Virus record (IMG/VR): IMGVR_UViG_3300044522_000281
Location: 1-22,399 of that record
Reading direction: 5' to 3' (one strand)
DNA length: 22,399 nucleotides
From: a virus
In this document: in pieces, positions 1,144 to 11,435 of the stretch
How the letters are laid out: each line of letters starts with the position of its first letter
Position numbering within the stretch: the stretch's first letter is position 1
Notes under the pieces: model-generated
Told to the model about the DNA's origin: nothing
What the model saw: only the letters and a program-made list of their open reading frames with translations
The model's database searches: none
Made by a program: the position numbers and the translations under genes

Positions 1144-1226
1144 GGGATGTGTGCCGTGTAGCGGGTTAGCGCCGCTTGGTTGATGACATAGCACAAACAC
1201 TGCTAGATGTGGACGGTACACATCCC
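1144..1226 (+). ncRNA. Predicted three-way-junction structured RNA upstream of the tRNA
   Basis: Beginning one base after the stop codon of the winged-helix gene, GGGATGTGTGCCGT (1144-1157) pairs with ACGGTACACATCCC (1213-1226). This gives 14 consecutive pairs, one of them G-U. Inside this closing stem are two hairpins, each with a 7-base loop. One is AGCGG/CCGCT (1160-1164 with 1172-1176). The other is ACAT-AGCA/TGCT-(AG)-ATGT (1186-1193 with 1201-1210, two bases bulged). The junction strands are GT, TGGTTGATG and GG. The element ends 4 bases before the tRNA. No T-run follows, so it is not an ordinary terminator. It may be a stable phage small RNA, a riboswitch-like element or a processing signal. 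It matches no class that I can recognise. Confidence 0.55.
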
Positions 1227-1230
1227 CCCT

Positions 1231-1315
1231 GCCTGAGTGGTGAAATTGGTAAACACTAGGGACTTAAAATCCCTCGCCTCACGGCTTACCGGTTCAAATC
1301 CGGTCTCAGGCACCA
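1231..1315 (+). tRNA. trnL: tRNA-Leu (anticodon UAA), CCA encoded
   Basis: The acceptor stem is GCCTGAG paired with CTCAGGC, followed by discriminator A and an encoded CCA at 1313-1315. The anticodon arm is AGGGA, loop CTTAAAA, TCCCT, giving anticodon TAA, which reads UUA and probably UUG. A long variable arm (CGCCTCACGGCTT) makes it a class II tRNA, as expected for leucine. The T arm is ACCGG-TTCAAAT-CCGGT. All arms are intact, so it should be functional. It is probably co-transcribed with the flanking plus-strand genes. The ribosome binding site of the next gene begins at the base after the CCA. UUA codons are frequent in the structural operon, notably before Asn and Lys codons, which gives a plausible reason for the phage to carry it. 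Confidence 0.97.
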
Positions 1316-1686: not shown

Positions 1687-1912
1687 CGGGACTGTAGTAG
1701 CTGCGCACTCCAACCAGCTACGGGACGGTAAGGGCAGAGGTTTAAAGGCGCAGGACTATAGGATCGCTGCCCTCTGCTTTACTTGTCACTTCGATATAGA
1801 CCAAGGCAGTAAGCTGTCCAAGGCCGAACGGGTTGAGATCTGGGAAGAGGCTCACCGTAAGACCATTGGATGGCTATTTGATAACGGGCTGCTTAGTCTA
1901 TGTTCTTCTTGA
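1619..1912 (+). CDS. HNH-like zinc nuclease-domain phage protein, 97 aa
   Basis: The start is TTG 1619, supported by GGAG at 1608-1611; beginning here gives the N-terminus R-N-T-H-L-L-K-x-V-R typical of this phage family. Zinc ligands are C16-x2-C19 and C53-x2-C56. Between them lies A-A-H30-S-N-Q-L-R-D-G-K-G-R-G-L-K, and the second knuckle continues as C-F-T-C-H57, giving the beta-beta-alpha-metal layout of an HNH-type nuclease with H30 and H57 as candidate catalytic or metal residues. I recognise the architecture as that of DUF1364-like phage nuclease-domain proteins. Activity in recombination, packaging or host-DNA breakdown is inference. It overlaps the zinc-ribbon gene by 68 bases upstream and the giant minus-strand gene by 20 bases downstream. 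Confidence 0.85.
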   Translation: MYRNTHLLKTVRLSPCQHCGVSDGTVVAAHSNQLRDGKGRGLKAQDYRIAALCFTCHFDIDQGSKLSKAERVEIWEEAHRKTIGWLFDNGLLSLCSS

Positions 1913-4900
1913 TGACCTGAATGTTGGCAGTCAGTTTATTCTCTGCCTTGGTGATGTTTAAAAGAGCATCACGCTTCTCGTCAGGTTCCATCTTAGACGC
2001 CCGGATCAGCAACTTCATTTCCCGGAACTCCTTCATGGTTTTCTCAAGGTCAAGCATATAGTCCTTGGTAGCCAAAAGCTTTATGTTGTCCTTGTAGTAT
2101 GGACCCCATTCCTTGAAGTTCATGGTACGTTCTAAGAGACCCGAAGTACGCACCGCTGCGTCTGTTGAGTTCTTGATTTCATAGTAGGCACTGACAGTCC
2201 CCCGCGCTTCAGGATCAAGCAGGAACCTCTTAATGACCGGGCTTTGTTCAAACCTCTTAGAGGCATCTGTAGAGTCATTATTGATCTTATAGATGGAGTC
2301 CATGAGGCTGAAGGCATACATGCCCATAGTCCCTGTAAACCCACCAAGAAGATGGTCAAGCTTTAAAGGAGATATGCCTGTAGCCCTACCAATATCAGTA
2401 GCAATCCCAGATGTATTAGGCCCAGTCTGGTAGCCTGACTCAACACCTTCCATGCCTTGCCCAACAAGGGGCCTGCCTGTAAAGAAGTTGTAGTTTGTTG
2501 CGTACTCAACAAAAGGCTTGGCAACTTGAGGGATTGGATTTAAAGACAAAGTACCAGATAACTGCCGGACCATTGACTCTGTAAAGTCCTTGTTGGTGTC
2601 CTTGCCAAAGGTGAGTGCCATGATCCTCTCAGGGATCACTTTAAATAAGATACCAACCTCAAATGGGATGGGTAGTTTTATGCCCAACGAAGGCAGAAGC
2701 CAGTAGTTGTCCTTTGTTTCCTGCTCCTGCTTTTTGTATTCATCATCGTCATGCGTCAAGGCCCAGTACATGCAGGACATTGCCATCATGGTTGCACCAC
2801 GGATGAAGAACTGCTTCTGAATTGCATCTGCGCTTTGTTGGTTTATTCCTTTACCAAAAGCTGCGCGGTAGAAAACATCCAAGCCTTGTATCCGAGCATT
2901 TAAGAACGGGATGGAGGCAGTCAGGACACGCACAATGGCAGAGTTACCCTTGCGGTTGAAGTTCATCACCTCAACAGCCCTGTAAATGGCTTCTGCTTCA
3001 TTGTTGGTCTTGGCTAGGACTTCCCTGTAAACCTGCATCCGGGTTGCCGCATCAGAGGCTGTAGTCCCCTTCTCAAGAGCTTCCCAGATACCTGTCACAG
3101 GGCTAGCAAGCTTCTCGTTTGCCGTCCTATACCCAGCAGTCTTGCGCAGATCACTGGCAAACTTATTGCCGCTCTGGACAATGCTCTCAGAGTATTCATT
3201 CCCACCCAGGATGCCGGCGTTAAACAGAGCCTGGAACTCAGGTGACTTCCCTGCGATAGCTGCGGCAAAGTTCCTGATCGTTGTCGCCGGGTTCACACTC
3301 CCTATCCCAGAGGTGACATGCGAAGACATTGAATCCCGGATCATGTTAGCTAGCATGAACCCTGGTTCTTTGGTAACAAGGGTTCTCAATAACTGAGCGG
3401 GCTTAGAGAAGATCCCCATGAAGGGCACATCAGGCAGATTCAAGCTGGTCACAGCCTGTAGCCAAAGCCTATCCTGAGACCTAAATGACTTCTTCATCCC
3501 ATTTACAAGGATGGTTATGGTGTCATCACCCGTGGAGACAAAGGACAACGGCTCAAGAACGTCTGTAGATCCTGGCGCATTTAAACTAAGAGCAACGGTC
3601 ACAGCCTTCTGGCCTGCTGTGTTCTTGATGCCCATCTGGATGGCAGACTGCGTGTTCCGGATGATGGTCTCAAGGAAGTCCGCAACAGGAGCATCAGATC
3701 CACCTTTAAGCTTCTTGGGTGGCTTTACACCTGTAAGCGACTGGAAGAGCTTAGGCCCAATGGTTGGCTCATCATCCATTTGGCGGTAGAACGGGATGTA
3801 GTCTCCGTACTTAATCCACTCTTTCCGGCCTTCATCGTTTATAACCCCGGTGTCCATTAAATACTTGGACAACTGATTGTTGTACTTAATCCATTCCTTT
3901 TGGACATCTACAAATTCCGGGTAAAGATTCTCGTAATACGCAGCTTCTGCAATGTCAGGAGGAGTGTAATTTATCTCAGTGCCGTTAGGGTTTGTTGCCG
4001 AAGGCATCAGCCGCTTACCGCGCTTCACACCAGCCCAGAGTTGATAAGCCCTGTAAATGTCTGGGTCACCCTTGCCAAGCTTAGTGAGGACGGAGAAGAT
4101 CTCTAAGGGGCCTTTAATAGTGCCATTTAAAGTACTGACAGTGGTCATGCCGTTGGCAAAGACGGGGACACCACCAGATTTACTAAACACGGCAGCGGTC
4201 AAGCCTGCACCGTAGTCAGACATCATGGCAGCAGCTTCTGAGCTTGCATCTGCCAAAAGACCGAACCCGCCCATCCTATCGGCACGCTGCTTGTCATAGA
4301 CCCCAAGCTGGTTGTAACGATTTAACCAGACCTGACGGTACTCTGAGAAGTGCTTGGGAGAAATAGCACTTAGTAGTCTAGATGCCCAGCCTTCTTCTAT
4401 CCGGGCAACTGAAGTGCGGTCAATTGCTGCGTTGGCAGATGCTCTCCAAGTGCTACGAAGGCTTAGCTTCTCGGTGCTTCCGGCAGGGACTCCACCACTT
4501 TCATCAGGTGTTCCGCTCTCTCCTGCGGCGACATTCCCAGTGTTAACTCCTCTATCGAAGACCACAGAGGGTCGCGGTCGTCCACTACCCTCACTGGACT
4601 GCTTGATGATTGCTTCTTCATATCCGATGTCATCTGCTTTCTTCCCACTCAGCTTACCGTAAAGACGCTTCTCATAGTACCAAAGCGCTGCCTGGATGTC
4701 CGCAAGACTCAGGTTTATTTTCTCTTCCTGCAACAATTTTTGTGTGCGGCGGGCTGCGTCATACATGAACTTGCGGTCAGAAGAACCGAAAGGAGCCTCT
4801 TCAAGCATCTCGTATTCATTCTTGTAAATGGTGTTAGCCATTTTTTCAAGTCTGTTTTCATACATCAACTGATCAAAAGCGTCTTCAGCAACTACCCTTG

Positions 4901-7900
4901 CTTTCTTTTCCCAAGCAGCTTTCTCTGCTTTTACCGTGGGTTCTTTCTTGCCAACAAGATGTTCTAATTCTGTGTTAAACCCATACTCTTTGTACTTATC
5001 ACGAAGAGGAACAGCTTCCGCAAGGATGTCATCCCGCGTGGCATTAGGTTTACCAATCAACTCCCGGAACTTGTCAATGGAAGCATCAGTTGCTTGGGGG
5101 ATTAATAGACCGCGCATCCGGTTAAATGTACGGCTCCACCAAAGATCCATTGTTAAATAACCTTCTGACCCAGAAAGGTTAGCATAGAAGGCACCAAGCT
5201 TTGGCCCAAAGTAAATAGCAGCAGCAGGTATCCGCGTGTTTGCCAGATAAGATGCATCTGATTTTTTGCCAATAGAACGCAGATAAGCGTTCATGTCAGC
5301 AACAGTTACTTCTTTCTTTAATACTTGTTCAAAGTTCTCGCCATGCTTAGCAAGCAGCACTTCAATTTGCTTCAAGTTGTTAATTAAAGCAGTGGCCCTT
5401 CTGTTGCCCATAGCAACCAAAGGCTTACCATCCCTAAGCTTTGCGTAAAGCTTTACAGCGTTGGATATGTTCTTGGTGACCTTCTCGCCATTGGATGTAA
5501 CAGCAACAATGGCAGAGAAAACAGACTGCGCATGTCTGTTATAACCAAGCTCTGGGAATCTTGTGGAAAGCTGTTTAACTGCTTTAGGATAGTTATTAGA
5601 GTACCAGCCTAACCCAGTGCCCGTCTTAGAAGAGGATGCAAGTTGATAAGATACCTCATCTGCTAATGCCCTAGATATGGTATTTAAATCATCAGTGGTT
5701 AATTCTTTCCGATTCATTTGCCCCTGGTTCTCAAGAGTTTCTCTATTGAGAGCTATAGCAATATCACGGACTTTATTAAACCGGTTCCTCACTGCCTTTG
5801 TTTTTAATCCAAGCTCGTTTCTGGCAAAAGCATCATTTGCCTCCATGATCCCTCTTGTGGACAATGGAATAGAACGCAGGCTTAGCTTTTCTTGTTTCTT
5901 AGATTCATACTCTGCTTTGGTTCCTTGGTATTCAACAGGCGTGTTATGGTTCAACACAACCATCATACCCATCTTGGGAACTGCATAGCCATCATACCCA
6001 GCGTCAACAATCAACGATTCCATCGTGTTTGCATCGCCACGGGCTTCTGAATAAAGCCTGCTTACGACTGCTGGAGGTGCCAGATTGTCAAAAGTTTGGG
6101 TGTACACATAACCACCCAACCCGGACTCAGGCAGAGGCATAGTGCCATCTGGCTTGGCAATGTAGAAGTAGACCCGCTTTTTAATGCGGTCATCCCAGTG
6201 GGTTTCCAGCCGACGAGACTCAGCCCCACGCAGCCCAGTGCCGTACTTAAGCGCATCTAGGGTGTCAGTTTTTGCTTTGCCGTAATGTACCCCGCTAAAA
6301 GCAACGGAGTCTGGTTGCTTTGTACCAAGGGTTATCCCTCGTAAGGAGTACTTGGTTGCAGCAACTTGCAACTCTACTGCTTGTTCGTATTCAACAAGAG
6401 GAGTTTTAGCAACAGCTTCATCACCAGCCTTTAAATCACCCTTAGGGTTAAAAGATGGGTCATAAACATAAAACACCAAGTCTGGATTGCCGTTTTGGAA
6501 TTGCTTAAACTTCTGGAAATCCCAGAGTTCAGTCGCCATCTCTGGGTTAAATTCAACCCTAGCAACTGGACGGAATTGTGCCTTGCCCAATACGCTGGGA
6601 AGCTTTGTCCTGTAAGCATCTATTCTTCTGCCGCCTTCTTCAACAGCAAGGCGCAATGTTGGGTATGCTTGTCCACCACCGCCAGAGAAGAATGAACCAA
6701 TCTCATCGCCAATCAAAGCAAAGCCTGATTCTTTGTCTTCCGACAGGAAAAGCCTAGCGTCTTGATATGTTTCTAAATCATGCACATGCAAGGGGAAGGC
6801 ATATTCTCTGCCGCGCTTTACACGGTCAACAGCATTCCTAAACATCTTTGCATCTTTGCGGGAATCCAATTCTTGAAATACAGGCTCATCTTTAGATATG
6901 CCTTCTTTCCAAGTCCAGTCAGGCATAAGCCCAACCTTCTGATCAGCAAAAGCGGTTTCAAAAACTTTTGCTTTTCTGTTTTTTTCCCCATTAGGACCGT
7001 AGTTTACTTCGCTATTTTGCCCTCTAGTTTCACTAGTAAGAGCTTTTAAAGCGGGCCCATAGAATAATTTTGCATGAGCTTGCCATGCGTTTTCTTCACC
7101 TTCAGCCCTAAACCCAGCACCTTCAAGCCCGTGCCCAAACGCATCATGCACAGCACGGAACAAATCATTTGCCGTAACCATGCGTTCAATGCCGTTCTGG
7201 TCTTCCCATAAAAGACCAGTATCCGCAAGCATTGGGTTGTTTTTAACAGCAGATTCTGTTCTGCCATCTGGCCCATACCCATCGTATGTGCCATAAACTG
7301 CCATTGTTTTATTTGCGCGGAGATCCCGCATGGAATTCCAGGCATTACCATCATAGGGGTCTGTTTCCCCGTCAAAAAACGTAAACTTATACCCGCTATC
7401 ACTTAACGCATCAAATTGATCCCGAACTTGCCGAATCATATCGGCATAAGCTTCTTTTACTTTGGGGTCTTCCGGGTTATTTGGCATTGCCAAATAAGCT
7501 TTTGCAAGACGTTTAGCCCGGTCTACGTTTAATTCAACGTATTCAGATTGCCTCTTATAAGGTATGCCGTATTTCTTGGCATACTTCTCAGCAACAGCTA
7601 CTAGCTCTGAATTGGGCCCACCCCCCTGCACAGTCGGCGCACCAGAAAGCGCCGTATCTTTTCCGCTTCTATCCCGTCCTCCTCCGTCTCCGGTCGGCGC
7701 GGATCGTCCTCCTCGTATTGAGAGCTTTCCTTCATCGCCGCCATCGCTTCCTTGCCCGCCTCTATCGCCGGGTCTAAGCGCAGGTTCTCCAGATCTAGCT
7801 TGTTCACTTGCTTCTCCTTGTTGAGTGCCTGATTGTACGCCTGACTGTGTGCCACTAGTGGTTGACCCTCCTCTTGAAGGGGCTTTTAGCTCACCGCGTG

Positions 7901-10900
7901 CAATCTTGCCAAAGATCTGCCTAGCAGCTTGCTCAGAGGTGTAGATCCCATTGCCCTGTAAAGCACTCTTAATCGCGTCAAACAAGCTAATCAGCCTGTT
8001 TAGGATTGCCTTGAGCATCCCAGGAGGAGCCCCGCTGGTGTCGAAGTCACCGAAGGCATCTGCGATTGCTTCTTCAATGATGGCATTGGGGTCAGACTTG
8101 AACTCAGGCCGCTCCATGTAGGCATCGTAACGGGACTTCTCTCCCTCTTTTAAAGGGTTGCCATCTTCGTTGCGAGTCTTCAAATAGGTGTCAATCCACC
8201 CATCATTGGCCTGTTTGGTCAGAGCCTTCCATTGACTTTCACTGAAGAAGCCCAGTTCCTTCAGGGCATGGATAGCTTCATGGCGCAGAGTCCTTACAGG
8301 CTTGTCTGCGTCCAGTGCAATCTTGATGAGCTTTGCTGAGTAAGAGCCTTCATACTTCTTGGACTCAATGTCATCCATGATCTTGACGGCAACATCCTTA
8401 AGGCCCATGCGGTTAAGCATCTTGCTCAGGATGTTCTTAAACTGCTCCGTCTTCTCAGCAATCCTAGCGGGGCCCTCAGCTTTAAATGCCTCAATGGCAG
8501 CTAAGTCTTGCTTCTCAACCTCAGAGAGTTCTGCTGGGGGCTTGGCTTCCTTGGCTGCTTCTTTGGGCTTACGCTTGGAGAAGTACTCCTTTTCCTGGGC
8601 TTCTGTCCCGGTCTTAGCAGCAGTAACAAGCTCTTCAGACAGGGCTATTGCCTCTGTCAAAGCATTGGAATCCTTAATGCCCAGCAGTTGGGCAATAGTC
8701 TCTACAAACTTGCTCCAAGCAGTGGTCTTCTCATAAGCAATCTTAGATAACCAGTACTGGAAATCAGGGTTACCCCATGCCTCGCTTACAAACTCATGGA
8801 TGTTGGTAAGACCATACGGTTTATGAGTATTGGCATATTGTTTGTTATGTAATGGATTTACCTCTTCACGAACTTTTCCAAGGTTTTCTTTTACATGTTC
8901 AAACAGTTTTTGCAACTTCCTAACTATTGGCTTTTGTTCCGCTGTTGGGTTATCTATTGAATAGCTGGTAATTGCATGAGTGTATTCATGCGTTAATATG
9001 TTTTCATCTTTTGCAAAATACGGGCTTTGTATTTCAACAGTGTTTGTGCTGCGGTCAAAACTTCCAGCAATGGCAGTCCTTTTTGAAATAACCCGACCAA
9101 TGGATTGCCGCAGACGATCTTCACCAAGTTCTTTTGTTTCTTCTTCAAGTTTTGCTAAAGTATTAAGGAAAGACTTTTTTACAATTGTTTCCCCTCTTTG
9201 GAACTCACGAAGAGTAATTTCATGGTTCCCATTACCAAGATCATCTATTATTACGTCTTTTGGCAAAAGAACATATGGGCTTAATAATTTATATGGAACA
9301 TGATCCATATCATTTGGCAACTGTTCAACAATTGGCTTTAACTCCCGCATTGCATCAAGTTGATTGATGTGCATGGTATGAGCAACAACTGTGTTTTGAT
9401 CAGCGGTTCTACGAGAGTAATCTTCCTGTTCACTTGCTTCTGGGTTAATTCTTGTCTTTAACCCTGGAATTAAACTAGCCAGTTCGGCTATTTTCTGTGT
9501 GAATACATTTTTGCTTTTGCTTAAAGCAGAAAGAACCCCTGGGGTGTCTTCCAGCATCACAGCTTTGGCGGCAGGTTGATTTACTCTCCCACTTAAATTC
9601 CACCCGCCCGCTCCTCTTACCGCGCCTGTTGCTTTGCCAAATGCTTCTCTTTCTTTAAGCATTGAAGGCTGACGCTCAGCCGCTGTCGTTGAAGGCCCAA
9701 CTAACGACATCTCTTCTACTGAAGGGGGTGCTGCTGTTTCTCCTCCAACAGTGCCTGTAACATTCTGCCCAGTAGAAACCATTCCATCTGGCTGAGTGGC
9801 TGCAACTCCTGGGGTGGTGCTTCCTGCACCGGGCTCGCTAGCCAACACAGTGCTTTCTCCACCTGGGGCTGTGTCAGTTGTTCCAACATTTACAGTTCCT
9901 TGTGTCGCAGGAGTTACAGGCTTAAAGAATGGGATTGATTCTATAAAGGTATCAATGTTCTGGGACGTAGCTCCAGGCTTAATACCTGCCTTGTACTTAT
10001 TAAGTATGTCAATAACGGCAGCAGCTTGCTCCGGATTGCTTATGTCCTTACCAACAATCTGGTCAAATATATTGGTCTTGCTCTTGTTCTGAACAAACCC
10101 AATAGAGTTTGCCAGTTGTGCTGAAATGACCGTGGACAGATCAGCAGGAAGGAATGACAGATCCCCTGCGCCTTCAGCCTGTGGCTGTAAAGAGCGTGAT
10201 GCCTCATCAAGTTTCTTTAACAGGAAATCATTTACTACACCCTCTGTATCGTTAAGAGATGCAGTGTTGGCAGCTTTAATTGCAGCCTTAATTTCAGGTG
10301 TCTGGGGTAAGGCTTGTAATGTCCCTATGTACGCAGGGATTTGCCCATACGGAAGATTGTTTAAATCTTGCTCGTTAAGGATGGGGGAGACAGGGGGAGG
10401 CGGGGGAGCAGGCGGCGGGAGTAGATTTAACTTCTCTTCGTCTATTTCATTCTTCAACCGCTGAGCAGCATCAGCCAAGGACTCACCGGGGCGTTGCCCA
10501 GGCATAGCACCTACAACCTCAGCTTCACGTTGTTCCCTGCCGCGCTCAAAGTAACGCCCAACAGGAGCCATAGCCCCACCAAGGGCAGCACCGCCCAGGA
10601 AGCTGTCTAGGTATTCCTTCTGCGCTTTCTCATCGGTAAGGCTTAAGCCCGCCTGTAACCGTTCAAAGACTTGCTGGCCGGCTTCTGTAAGCCCCTCTAC
10701 CCCCATTGTCTTGCCGGTAGAAAGAGCGTAGTCCGCAACAGTTCTCTTTAAACCTTGAGTAGCAATAGCCTCGGCTTCTTCTGCCGTCATCTTCTTACCA
10801 GCAGCACCAAAGATTCCCCGGACACCAGGGATCATCTTCAAGGACAGCACATCCAACGCAGCCTGCGGGATAGCAGCCAAGGCAGCAGAACCAAGCTCAG

Positions 10901-11435
10901 CATCGGCTAAGGAAGAACCTTCTTCCATTTTCCGGGTAAGGTTTGATCCAGTGAACTGAGCACCAGATACGAGACCAGTAAGGCCCATGCCTATCCCGGT
11001 TGCAACAGCAGGAGCAATGGTGGCCGGTAAGGCTAGGGTGGCAACACCAGCAAGTGCAGGAGCAGCCATATAGGCAGCAGACCCGCCAGCAAGCTCTTTA
11101 AGCTTCTTTAAAGGAGACTGTGACCAGTCATCTTCAGTGGGCTGAAAGATCTTTGCGGACTCTTCACGTTGCTTGGCTATATAGTCTTCAGCAGACTTAA
11201 TATCCATCAAGCCAGTCTTGGCTGCAAGCGCAGCCGCATCACCTTTTAAACCTTTAAAGCCTGCCTGTAATGCCGGGAAAAATCCAGACTTAGTTTCATC
11301 CGGAGGAGCAGGAGGCCTATTAGAGTTTGGAAACTTTGCCAAAACAGCTTGCGCCACTTGGGCATCGGTAGCATCGTCAGGGCCTTCAATTTGGTATGTG
11401 CCCCCATCAGGAGCGGTAACACGATAAGTAGCCAT
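1893..11435 (-). CDS. Giant polyvalent internal-virion-type protein, 3180 aa
   Basis: A single uninterrupted 9.5-kb gene. Residues 1-30 form a small domain (YRVTAPDGGTYQIEGPDDAT). Residues 117-160 and 180-212 are hydrophobic Ala/Gly-rich helices, and 340-349 is proline-rich. HEYTH (816-820, with NIHEFVSE near 879) and HEAIH (1052-1056, with EEAIADAF from 1121) look like two zinc metallopeptidase sites. H-D-A-F-G-H is at 1430-1435. A GNAT-like segment (GFALIGDEIGSFFS) starts at 1571. About 1700-1836 is ADP-ribosyltransferase-like, 1860-2290 is a conserved polyvalent-protein domain (FGPKLGAFYANLSG, LWWSRTFNR), and 2330-3180 is LPD38-like (FLNARIQGLD). Such proteins are packaged or injected with DNA in many phages. 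The start overlaps the previous stop (TAATG) without a clear ribosome binding site. Enzyme activities are inferred from motifs only. Confidence 0.95.
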   Translation of the reverse strand: MATYRVTAPDGGTYQIEGPDDATDAQVAQAVLAKFPNSNRPPAPPDETKSGFFPALQAGFKGLKGDAAALAAKTGLMDIKSAEDYIAKQREESAKIFQPTEDDWSQSPLKKLKELAGGSAAYMAAPALAGVATLALPATIAPAVATGIGMGLTGLVSGAQFTGSNLTRKMEEGSSLADAELGSAALAAIPQAALDVLSLKMIPGVRGIFGAAGKKMTAEEAEAIATQGLKRTVADYALSTGKTMGVEGLTEAGQQVFERLQAGLSLTDEKAQKEYLDSFLGGAALGGAMAPVGRYFERGREQREAEVVGAMPGQRPGESLADAAQRLKNEIDEEKLNLLPPPAPPPPPVSPILNEQDLNNLPYGQIPAYIGTLQALPQTPEIKAAIKAANTASLNDTEGVVNDFLLKKLDEASRSLQPQAEGAGDLSFLPADLSTVISAQLANSIGFVQNKSKTNIFDQIVGKDISNPEQAAAVIDILNKYKAGIKPGATSQNIDTFIESIPFFKPVTPATQGTVNVGTTDTAPGGESTVLASEPGAGSTTPGVAATQPDGMVSTGQNVTGTVGGETAAPPSVEEMSLVGPSTTAAERQPSMLKEREAFGKATGAVRGAGGWNLSGRVNQPAAKAVMLEDTPGVLSALSKSKNVFTQKIAELASLIPGLKTRINPEASEQEDYSRRTADQNTVVAHTMHINQLDAMRELKPIVEQLPNDMDHVPYKLLSPYVLLPKDVIIDDLGNGNHEITLREFQRGETIVKKSFLNTLAKLEEETKELGEDRLRQSIGRVISKRTAIAGSFDRSTNTVEIQSPYFAKDENILTHEYTHAITSYSIDNPTAEQKPIVRKLQKLFEHVKENLGKVREEVNPLHNKQYANTHKPYGLTNIHEFVSEAWGNPDFQYWLSKIAYEKTTAWSKFVETIAQLLGIKDSNALTEAIALSEELVTAAKTGTEAQEKEYFSKRKPKEAAKEAKPPAELSEVEKQDLAAIEAFKAEGPARIAEKTEQFKNILSKMLNRMGLKDVAVKIMDDIESKKYEGSYSAKLIKIALDADKPVRTLRHEAIHALKELGFFSESQWKALTKQANDGWIDTYLKTRNEDGNPLKEGEKSRYDAYMERPEFKSDPNAIIEEAIADAFGDFDTSGAPPGMLKAILNRLISLFDAIKSALQGNGIYTSEQAARQIFGKIARGELKAPSRGGSTTSGTQSGVQSGTQQGEASEQARSGEPALRPGDRGGQGSDGGDEGKLSIRGGRSAPTGDGGGRDRSGKDTALSGAPTVQGGGPNSELVAVAEKYAKKYGIPYKRQSEYVELNVDRAKRLAKAYLAMPNNPEDPKVKEAYADMIRQVRDQFDALSDSGYKFTFFDGETDPYDGNAWNSMRDLRANKTMAVYGTYDGYGPDGRTESAVKNNPMLADTGLLWEDQNGIERMVTANDLFRAVHDAFGHGLEGAGFRAEGEENAWQAHAKLFYGPALKALTSETRGQNSEVNYGPNGEKNRKAKVFETAFADQKVGLMPDWTWKEGISKDEPVFQELDSRKDAKMFRNAVDRVKRGREYAFPLHVHDLETYQDARLFLSEDKESGFALIGDEIGSFFSGGGGQAYPTLRLAVEEGGRRIDAYRTKLPSVLGKAQFRPVARVEFNPEMATELWDFQKFKQFQNGNPDLVFYVYDPSFNPKGDLKAGDEAVAKTPLVEYEQAVELQVAATKYSLRGITLGTKQPDSVAFSGVHYGKAKTDTLDALKYGTGLRGAESRRLETHWDDRIKKRVYFYIAKPDGTMPLPESGLGGYVYTQTFDNLAPPAVVSRLYSEARGDANTMESLIVDAGYDGYAVPKMGMMVVLNHNTPVEYQGTKAEYESKKQEKLSLRSIPLSTRGIMEANDAFARNELGLKTKAVRNRFNKVRDIAIALNRETLENQGQMNRKELTTDDLNTISRALADEVSYQLASSSKTGTGLGWYSNNYPKAVKQLSTRFPELGYNRHAQSVFSAIVAVTSNGEKVTKNISNAVKLYAKLRDGKPLVAMGNRRATALINNLKQIEVLLAKHGENFEQVLKKEVTVADMNAYLRSIGKKSDASYLANTRIPAAAIYFGPKLGAFYANLSGSEGYLTMDLWWSRTFNRMRGLLIPQATDASIDKFRELIGKPNATRDDILAEAVPLRDKYKEYGFNTELEHLVGKKEPTVKAEKAAWEKKARVVAEDAFDQLMYENRLEKMANTIYKNEYEMLEEAPFGSSDRKFMYDAARRTQKLLQEEKINLSLADIQAALWYYEKRLYGKLSGKKADDIGYEEAIIKQSSEGSGRPRPSVVFDRGVNTGNVAAGESGTPDESGGVPAGSTEKLSLRSTWRASANAAIDRTSVARIEEGWASRLLSAISPKHFSEYRQVWLNRYNQLGVYDKQRADRMGGFGLLADASSEAAAMMSDYGAGLTAAVFSKSGGVPVFANGMTTVSTLNGTIKGPLEIFSVLTKLGKGDPDIYRAYQLWAGVKRGKRLMPSATNPNGTEINYTPPDIAEAAYYENLYPEFVDVQKEWIKYNNQLSKYLMDTGVINDEGRKEWIKYGDYIPFYRQMDDEPTIGPKLFQSLTGVKPPKKLKGGSDAPVADFLETIIRNTQSAIQMGIKNTAGQKAVTVALSLNAPGSTDVLEPLSFVSTGDDTITILVNGMKKSFRSQDRLWLQAVTSLNLPDVPFMGIFSKPAQLLRTLVTKEPGFMLANMIRDSMSSHVTSGIGSVNPATTIRNFAAAIAGKSPEFQALFNAGILGGNEYSESIVQSGNKFASDLRKTAGYRTANEKLASPVTGIWEALEKGTTASDAATRMQVYREVLAKTNNEAEAIYRAVEVMNFNRKGNSAIVRVLTASIPFLNARIQGLDVFYRAAFGKGINQQSADAIQKQFFIRGATMMAMSCMYWALTHDDDEYKKQEQETKDNYWLLPSLGIKLPIPFEVGILFKVIPERIMALTFGKDTNKDFTESMVRQLSGTLSLNPIPQVAKPFVEYATNYNFFTGRPLVGQGMEGVESGYQTGPNTSGIATDIGRATGISPLKLDHLLGGFTGTMGMYAFSLMDSIYKINNDSTDASKRFEQSPVIKRFLLDPEARGTVSAYYEIKNSTDAAVRTSGLLERTMNFKEWGPYYKDNIKLLATKDYMLDLEKTMKEFREMKLLIRASKMEPDEKRDALLNITKAENKLTANIQVIKKNID

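Follow-up and report, generated by a model that had tools for sequence, protein, structure and literature searches.

The window, a 22,399-nucleotide stretch of viral DNA (IMG/VR record IMGVR_UViG_3300044522_000281), carries between an open reading frame and a tRNA gene one copy of a three-way-junction RNA element that recurs in more than 140 distinct phage sequences. Across roughly 150 distinct copies gathered from viral metagenome contigs, two constant loops sit on freely varying stems, and from this combination we conclude that the element is very probably a functional phage RNA. The family has very strong covariation support, occurs in phages with dissimilar gene neighbourhoods and finds no match in Rfam 15. 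By the measure of Rfam 15 and the open-licence literature it is a new RNA family within a known wider kind, the structured noncoding RNAs of phages.

The minimum free energy (MFE) fold of the window element (Table 1) reaches −36.2 kcal/mol (z = −3.71), and none of 200 shuffled sequences is equally stable. An earlier note on this DNA, made from the letters alone, had described a 14-bp closing stem with one G·U pair, a first hairpin with the loop GUUAGCG, a start directly after a stop codon (here TAA) and 4 nt (1227–1230) left before the tRNA, all of which we confirm. It had also remarked on the absence of a T-run, and indeed the bases after P1 in the window are CCCT, which does not make an intrinsic terminator; a T-run follows the element in 8 of 150 copies.

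Table 1 Features of the RNA element and its neighbours in the window.
Feature	Position	Strand	Description
Three-way-junction RNA element	1144–1226	+	Closed junction, MFE fold
P1, 5′ strand	1144–1157	+	14 bp with 1213–1226, one G·U; P1 of homologues free in sequence, still paired
P2 hairpin, AGCGG-GUUAGCG-CCGCU	1160–1176	+	Loop 1 at 1165–1171; outer pairs covary (A-U, U-A, G-C, C-G)
J2/3 linker	1177–1197	+	Variable, 15–46 nt across homologues; neither length nor sequence conserved
P3 hairpin, CAC-UGCUAGAU-GUG	1198–1211	+	Loop 2 at 1201–1208; CAC/GUG, CGC/GCG and CUC/GAG variants
J3/1	1212	+	Single base
P1, 3′ strand	1213–1226	+	Partner of 1144–1157
Covariance-model match (model R1)	1149–1221	+	61.7 bits, E = 4.9 × 10−14; near-identical copy L001 is among the 32 sequences of R1
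Upstream ORF, 137 aa	730–1143	+	Neighbour; its TAA (1141–1143) abuts P1; served as query for relatives
tRNA-Leu(UAA)	1231–1315	+	ARAGORN and Rfam; neighbour of the element, not part of it

The second hairpin had to be redrawn. The pairing read by the earlier note (UAGCA-CAAACAC-UGCUA) is rarely kept, with three or more of its pairs possible in 13 of 150 homologues, whereas the conserved hairpin is CAC-UGCUNNAU-GUG, at 1198–1211, which covaries between CAC/GUG, CGC/GCG and CUC/GAG. The closed three-way junction and its first hairpin therefore stand while the identity of the second does not, and a loop-loop contact proposed between GUU and AAC falls away with it, since homologues do not keep the hairpin on which it depended. 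The choice is explained by nearest-neighbour energies, which, computed with no tertiary contacts, favour the window sequence with the TAGCA/TGCTA hairpin (−36.2 kcal/mol) by 2.1 kcal/mol over the fold with the consensus P3 (−34.1 kcal/mol).

The first relatives were found through the upstream 137-aa reading frame; a pattern of the two hairpins then gave 20 stretches in viral contigs, and broader scans combined with a filter for the closing helix brought the collection to 79 and later to 150 distinct copies. By itself, the 15-base hairpin pattern yields many chance matches. One candidate, L138, was set aside as a chance pattern match in which the fold is absent, and in bacterial genomes the one narrow pattern used matched once (L139), also by chance and without the fold. 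Three relatives by gene content (DSL-LC04, ctpbd312 and Pag-Yong1) have no copy in the 50 kb searched of each. In the consensus, P1 may have any sequence over about 8 bp or more and ends 6 nt 5′ of GGUUAGCGCC in most copies (5–7 nt otherwise), P2 adjoins it with 0–1 nt between, P3 is a 3-bp helix of the form C[A/G/U]C-UGCUNNAU-G[U/C/A]G, and a spacer of one base (0–3) leads back to P1. The geometry in the window, P1-P2(GGUUAGCGCC)-J-P3(CRCUGCUNNAUGYG)-P1′, is that of the model R1 family, whose RNAs would be about 75–110 nt long.

In an alignment of 32 copies, the 18 pairs are formed in 98.1% of pair cells, and 14 of them have changed on both sides. The covariation score is 0.732 compared to 0.165 in shuffles, none of 500 shuffles reaches it, slid and shuffled controls all lie far below, and RNAalifold recovers the identical 18 pairs unaided. 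We looked for uncompensated, stem-breaking substitutions, which would have spoken against a structured RNA; P1 is instead maintained by compensating changes. These changes strongly support both the idea of an undescribed structured RNA and that of a phage small RNA. Scored symmetrically over 127 distinct P1 helices, G·U pairs outnumber A·C by 145 to 22, from which it follows that the plus-strand RNA is what is selected; the functional strand is settled.

Whereas the stems change freely, the loops do not, which points to a conserved partner. A scan that fixed none of the seven bases of loop 1 still gave GUUAGCG in 61 of 63 distinct copies, the remaining two keeping AGC; with six bases of loop 2 left free, all 75 copies read UGCUNN. 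Both loops are also kept in eight copies reached solely through a neighbouring hairpin, two of which supplied CUC/GAG, the third type of P3 pair. The AGC(G) of loop 1 is complementary to the (U)GCU of loop 2, and both are invariant. Docking of the loops through these bases is plausible, and we go no further, because the complementarity is present but shuffled loops match it in 6% of trials. Invariant loops cannot covary, which leaves the proposal to be drawn from complementarity: scans with the loops free gave, as the sole candidate for a compensating loop-loop change, one copy with AGU in place of AGC, which would still form a wobble.

A three-way junction with two hairpins and complementary loops of about 7–8 nt is also the architecture of the purine riboswitch, and this topology, the loop complementarity and a leader position in a subset of copies would suit a ligand-binding riboswitch. 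We consider that very improbable: the element has variable junction strands and no conserved core, a P3 of 3 bp and a long variable J2/3, a tRNA or other RNA often comes next, and the function of the downstream gene is not constant. The pRNA of phage phi29 resembles the element in being a phage RNA with paired 5′ and 3′ ends, a three-way junction and loops able to base-pair; it differs in that the loops of the element are invariant rather than phage-specific and its location is not tied to packaging genes. Neither RNA gives an Rfam match for the element.

More broadly, Rfam 15 yields no match to the window element, whether at gathering score or at any E below 1 (the best overlapping chance match is the snoRNA sR42, E = 1.6), nothing at gathering score in 12 other loci, and one distant sub-gathering match in five RNA-island loci searched up to E = 1. 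We also found no description of the element in open-licence PubMed Central literature. Two stable RNAs of phage T4, species 1 and 2, are encoded with the phage tRNAs and are larger than the element; GOLLD genes lie near phage tRNAs. GOLLD and ROOL are ornate, large structured noncoding RNAs of phages and bacteria, described as lake- or rumen-derived (PMC12286853). They extend over several hundred nucleotides compared to the 75–110 nt of the element, and their covariance models match neither the element nor its RNA islands.

The tRNA that follows in the window is not part of the element, as the neighbours differ among phages. Homologues precede VRR-NUC, glutaredoxin, terminase and tail genes; in four loci (L002, L004, L005 and L006) the element follows the homologous upstream gene without a tRNA; and close relatives have, at the equivalent site, the element only, a tRNA only or neither. 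At the site before the MNEQQELF gene, for example, there is the element in L020 and L022, a tRNA-Leu instead in L003 and nothing in L007, the behaviour of an independent RNA cargo. The neighbours include tRNA-Leu (the window, L001 and L023) and tRNA-Met (L050, L054, L066, L090 and L122). Other neighbours include genes for a major head protein, a primase, a minor tail protein and a thioredoxin/glutaredoxin and, as read from the ORFs, a putative VRR-NUC-like gene. With terminase, tail, glutaredoxin and VRR-NUC genes as well as tRNAs downstream, there is no constant class of following gene, which weakens the earlier suggestion of a ligand-sensing leader; that of a decoy for tRNA-processing enzymes finds no support. 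On the minus strand, the window also holds a 3180-aa ORF (1893–11435) convergent with the tRNA side; in a relative, Planktothrix phage Pag-Yong1, a ‘large polyvalent protein’ is annotated beside virion genes.

The element is matched in 44 of 46 phage records scored, at one place in most and at two in the rest. Record G032 carries its two identical matches at opposite ends, so that they probably represent one copy. Reading of the ORFs places putative terminase genes near the element in L149, L153, L158 and L159, and tblastn confirms the large terminase in L149 and L159. Low copy number in most phages and a position upstream of terminase genes in these four could hint at a DNA-level structure such as a cruciform or a packaging or replication site. 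We give this hardly any credence, given the strong strand polarity of the wobbles (145 versus 22), the promoters placed at P1 and a position that lies elsewhere in other phages and is not constant in the genome.

Promoter-like sites upstream of the element have −10 ends that peak 5–7 nt before P1. We scored 92 non-redundant contexts. A sigma70-like promoter whose −10 ends 4–8 nt before P1 occurs in 29, which places the predicted start site at the first P1 base or no more than 2 nt from it; in 27 an ORF start with a Shine-Dalgarno-like site follows no further than about 70 nt downstream (13 have both); a neighbouring hairpin, H0, is present in 26; and 31 have none of the three. The Shine-Dalgarno-like starts fit an mRNA leader as well as a small RNA. 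The main rival to a free-standing RNA is a cis-acting 5′ leader, in which the transcript would begin at the first P1 base, its buried 5′ end would escape RppH and RNase E, and the loops would bind a factor that stabilizes or regulates the following gene, mRNA or tRNA. The promoters, the ORF starts and the conservation of P1 solely as a helix speak for it; we nonetheless regard it as rather unlikely, because phages mostly have one or two copies though many operons could use the element, the downstream genes are unrelated, L007 has the same downstream gene without the element, and a third of the contexts (31 of 92) show none of the scored features.

We favour, at about an even chance, the reading that the window element belongs to a new family of structured small RNAs of phages, free-standing, stable and acting in trans through its two loops. 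It would be made as its own short RNA, either transcribed from a promoter located at P1 or processed out of the transcript of a phage RNA or tRNA operon. The window has no good promoter for the element, so that its RNA would need processing, and cleavage by RNase P at the 5′ end of the tRNA may set its 3′ end. P1 would close both RNA ends against exonucleases, and the loops, docked through AGC(G) and (U)GCU, would make up a constant surface for binding, in trans, a factor of the host or of the phage.

Alternatively, the element could itself be what cuts polycistronic phage RNA between units, as an RNase III/E site or a ribozyme. Its frequent position between RNA units or immediately 5′ of tRNAs would suit this, and there is a precedent in the theta ribozymes, small HDV-like structured RNAs that likewise abut phage tRNA genes (PMC10879173); these, however, fold as an HDV-like pseudoknot and cleave at tRNA 3′ ends, whereas the element has another fold and is 5′ of tRNAs in some phages only. 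Rfam ribozyme models match neither the element nor the RNA-island loci, base conservation is concentrated in the two loops and almost absent from the junction, unlike in known small ribozymes, and where a promoter lies directly at P1 there is nothing upstream to cut. Such a processing element is thus improbable.

In a subset of copies, the element is strung together in islands with H0 hairpins, other units and tRNAs; the window has the three-way junction and tRNA only, without other island units. H0 consists of CYAACACGCATGGGGATTG ... CAGTCCCCAGCCGTGTTGG around variable insides. Its pairs occur in 82 contig stretches, and only 8 of the 74 newly fetched of those loci contain the three-way junction, so H0 and junction units are separable. 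In L036 (1465–1700) and L071 (4679–4784), the H0 stem doubles as the closing stem of the junction, so that the junction looks inserted into H0. Tandem arrays of unnamed units, H0 together with X units of the form GTTGG(T)GAAAGCGGATGC ... GTAGCGAGTAGCCAAC, are seen in L233, L248, L066, L015, L166, L217 and L240, where adjacent H0 and X units share GTTGG/CCAAC arms and alternative pairings between units are possible. Pieces resembling a tRNA T-arm (GGTTCGA.TCC) lie in the H0/X units of L116, L233 and L248, as if tRNA remnants were the inserts. Several hundred nucleotides 3′ of the element, L240 and L036 share a similar noncoding stretch of more than 300 nt (CTATCGGGTT...CCTACAACGTTCTGA...GAGAGCGCAAAGAAG...TGTATGGCCG) which resembles a large structured RNA and has no Rfam match. 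Other loci (L017, L018, L027, L028, L092 and others) hold two copies of the element about 230–270 nt apart, between which lie a promoter-like TTGACA..TATAAA and a stretch with a terminator-like end, GGCC..TTTTTGTTTT, probably another gene for a small RNA.

One carrier is a cultured phage, Acidovorax phage ACF1, whose host is Acidovorax citrulli. BLAST of the elements against isolated phages was blind at strict E-values; a search at E = 10 led to ACF1, and the covariance model confirmed the copy (MZ547449.1:54971-55055, minus strand, 62.0 bits, E = 2 × 10−15). A BLAST match in Mycobacterium phage Saguaro reached 12.4 bits with the model and is due to chance. The ACF1 copy, which is not mentioned in the ACF1 paper, lies where, for about 700 nt between a tRNA-Ala and a head-tail adaptor gene, no gene is annotated. 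Upstream of the element, this gap (MZ547449.1 54803-55510, L261) holds repeated CCTTCGAG/CTCGAAGG hairpins, unlike H0 in sequence but alike in their layout of overlapping arms.

Going beyond the window, we tentatively suggest that these are widespread trans-acting phage RNAs, interchangeable cargo in the manner of tRNAs and often set in islands with other unnamed units. The two invariant loops, docked on each other, may bind a host component that is both essential and conserved, in host takeover or counter-defence. As ACF1 is cultured and carries a copy, the function of the element is directly testable, and the RNA islands suggest that phages have a repertoire of small RNAs invisible to protein-centred annotation.
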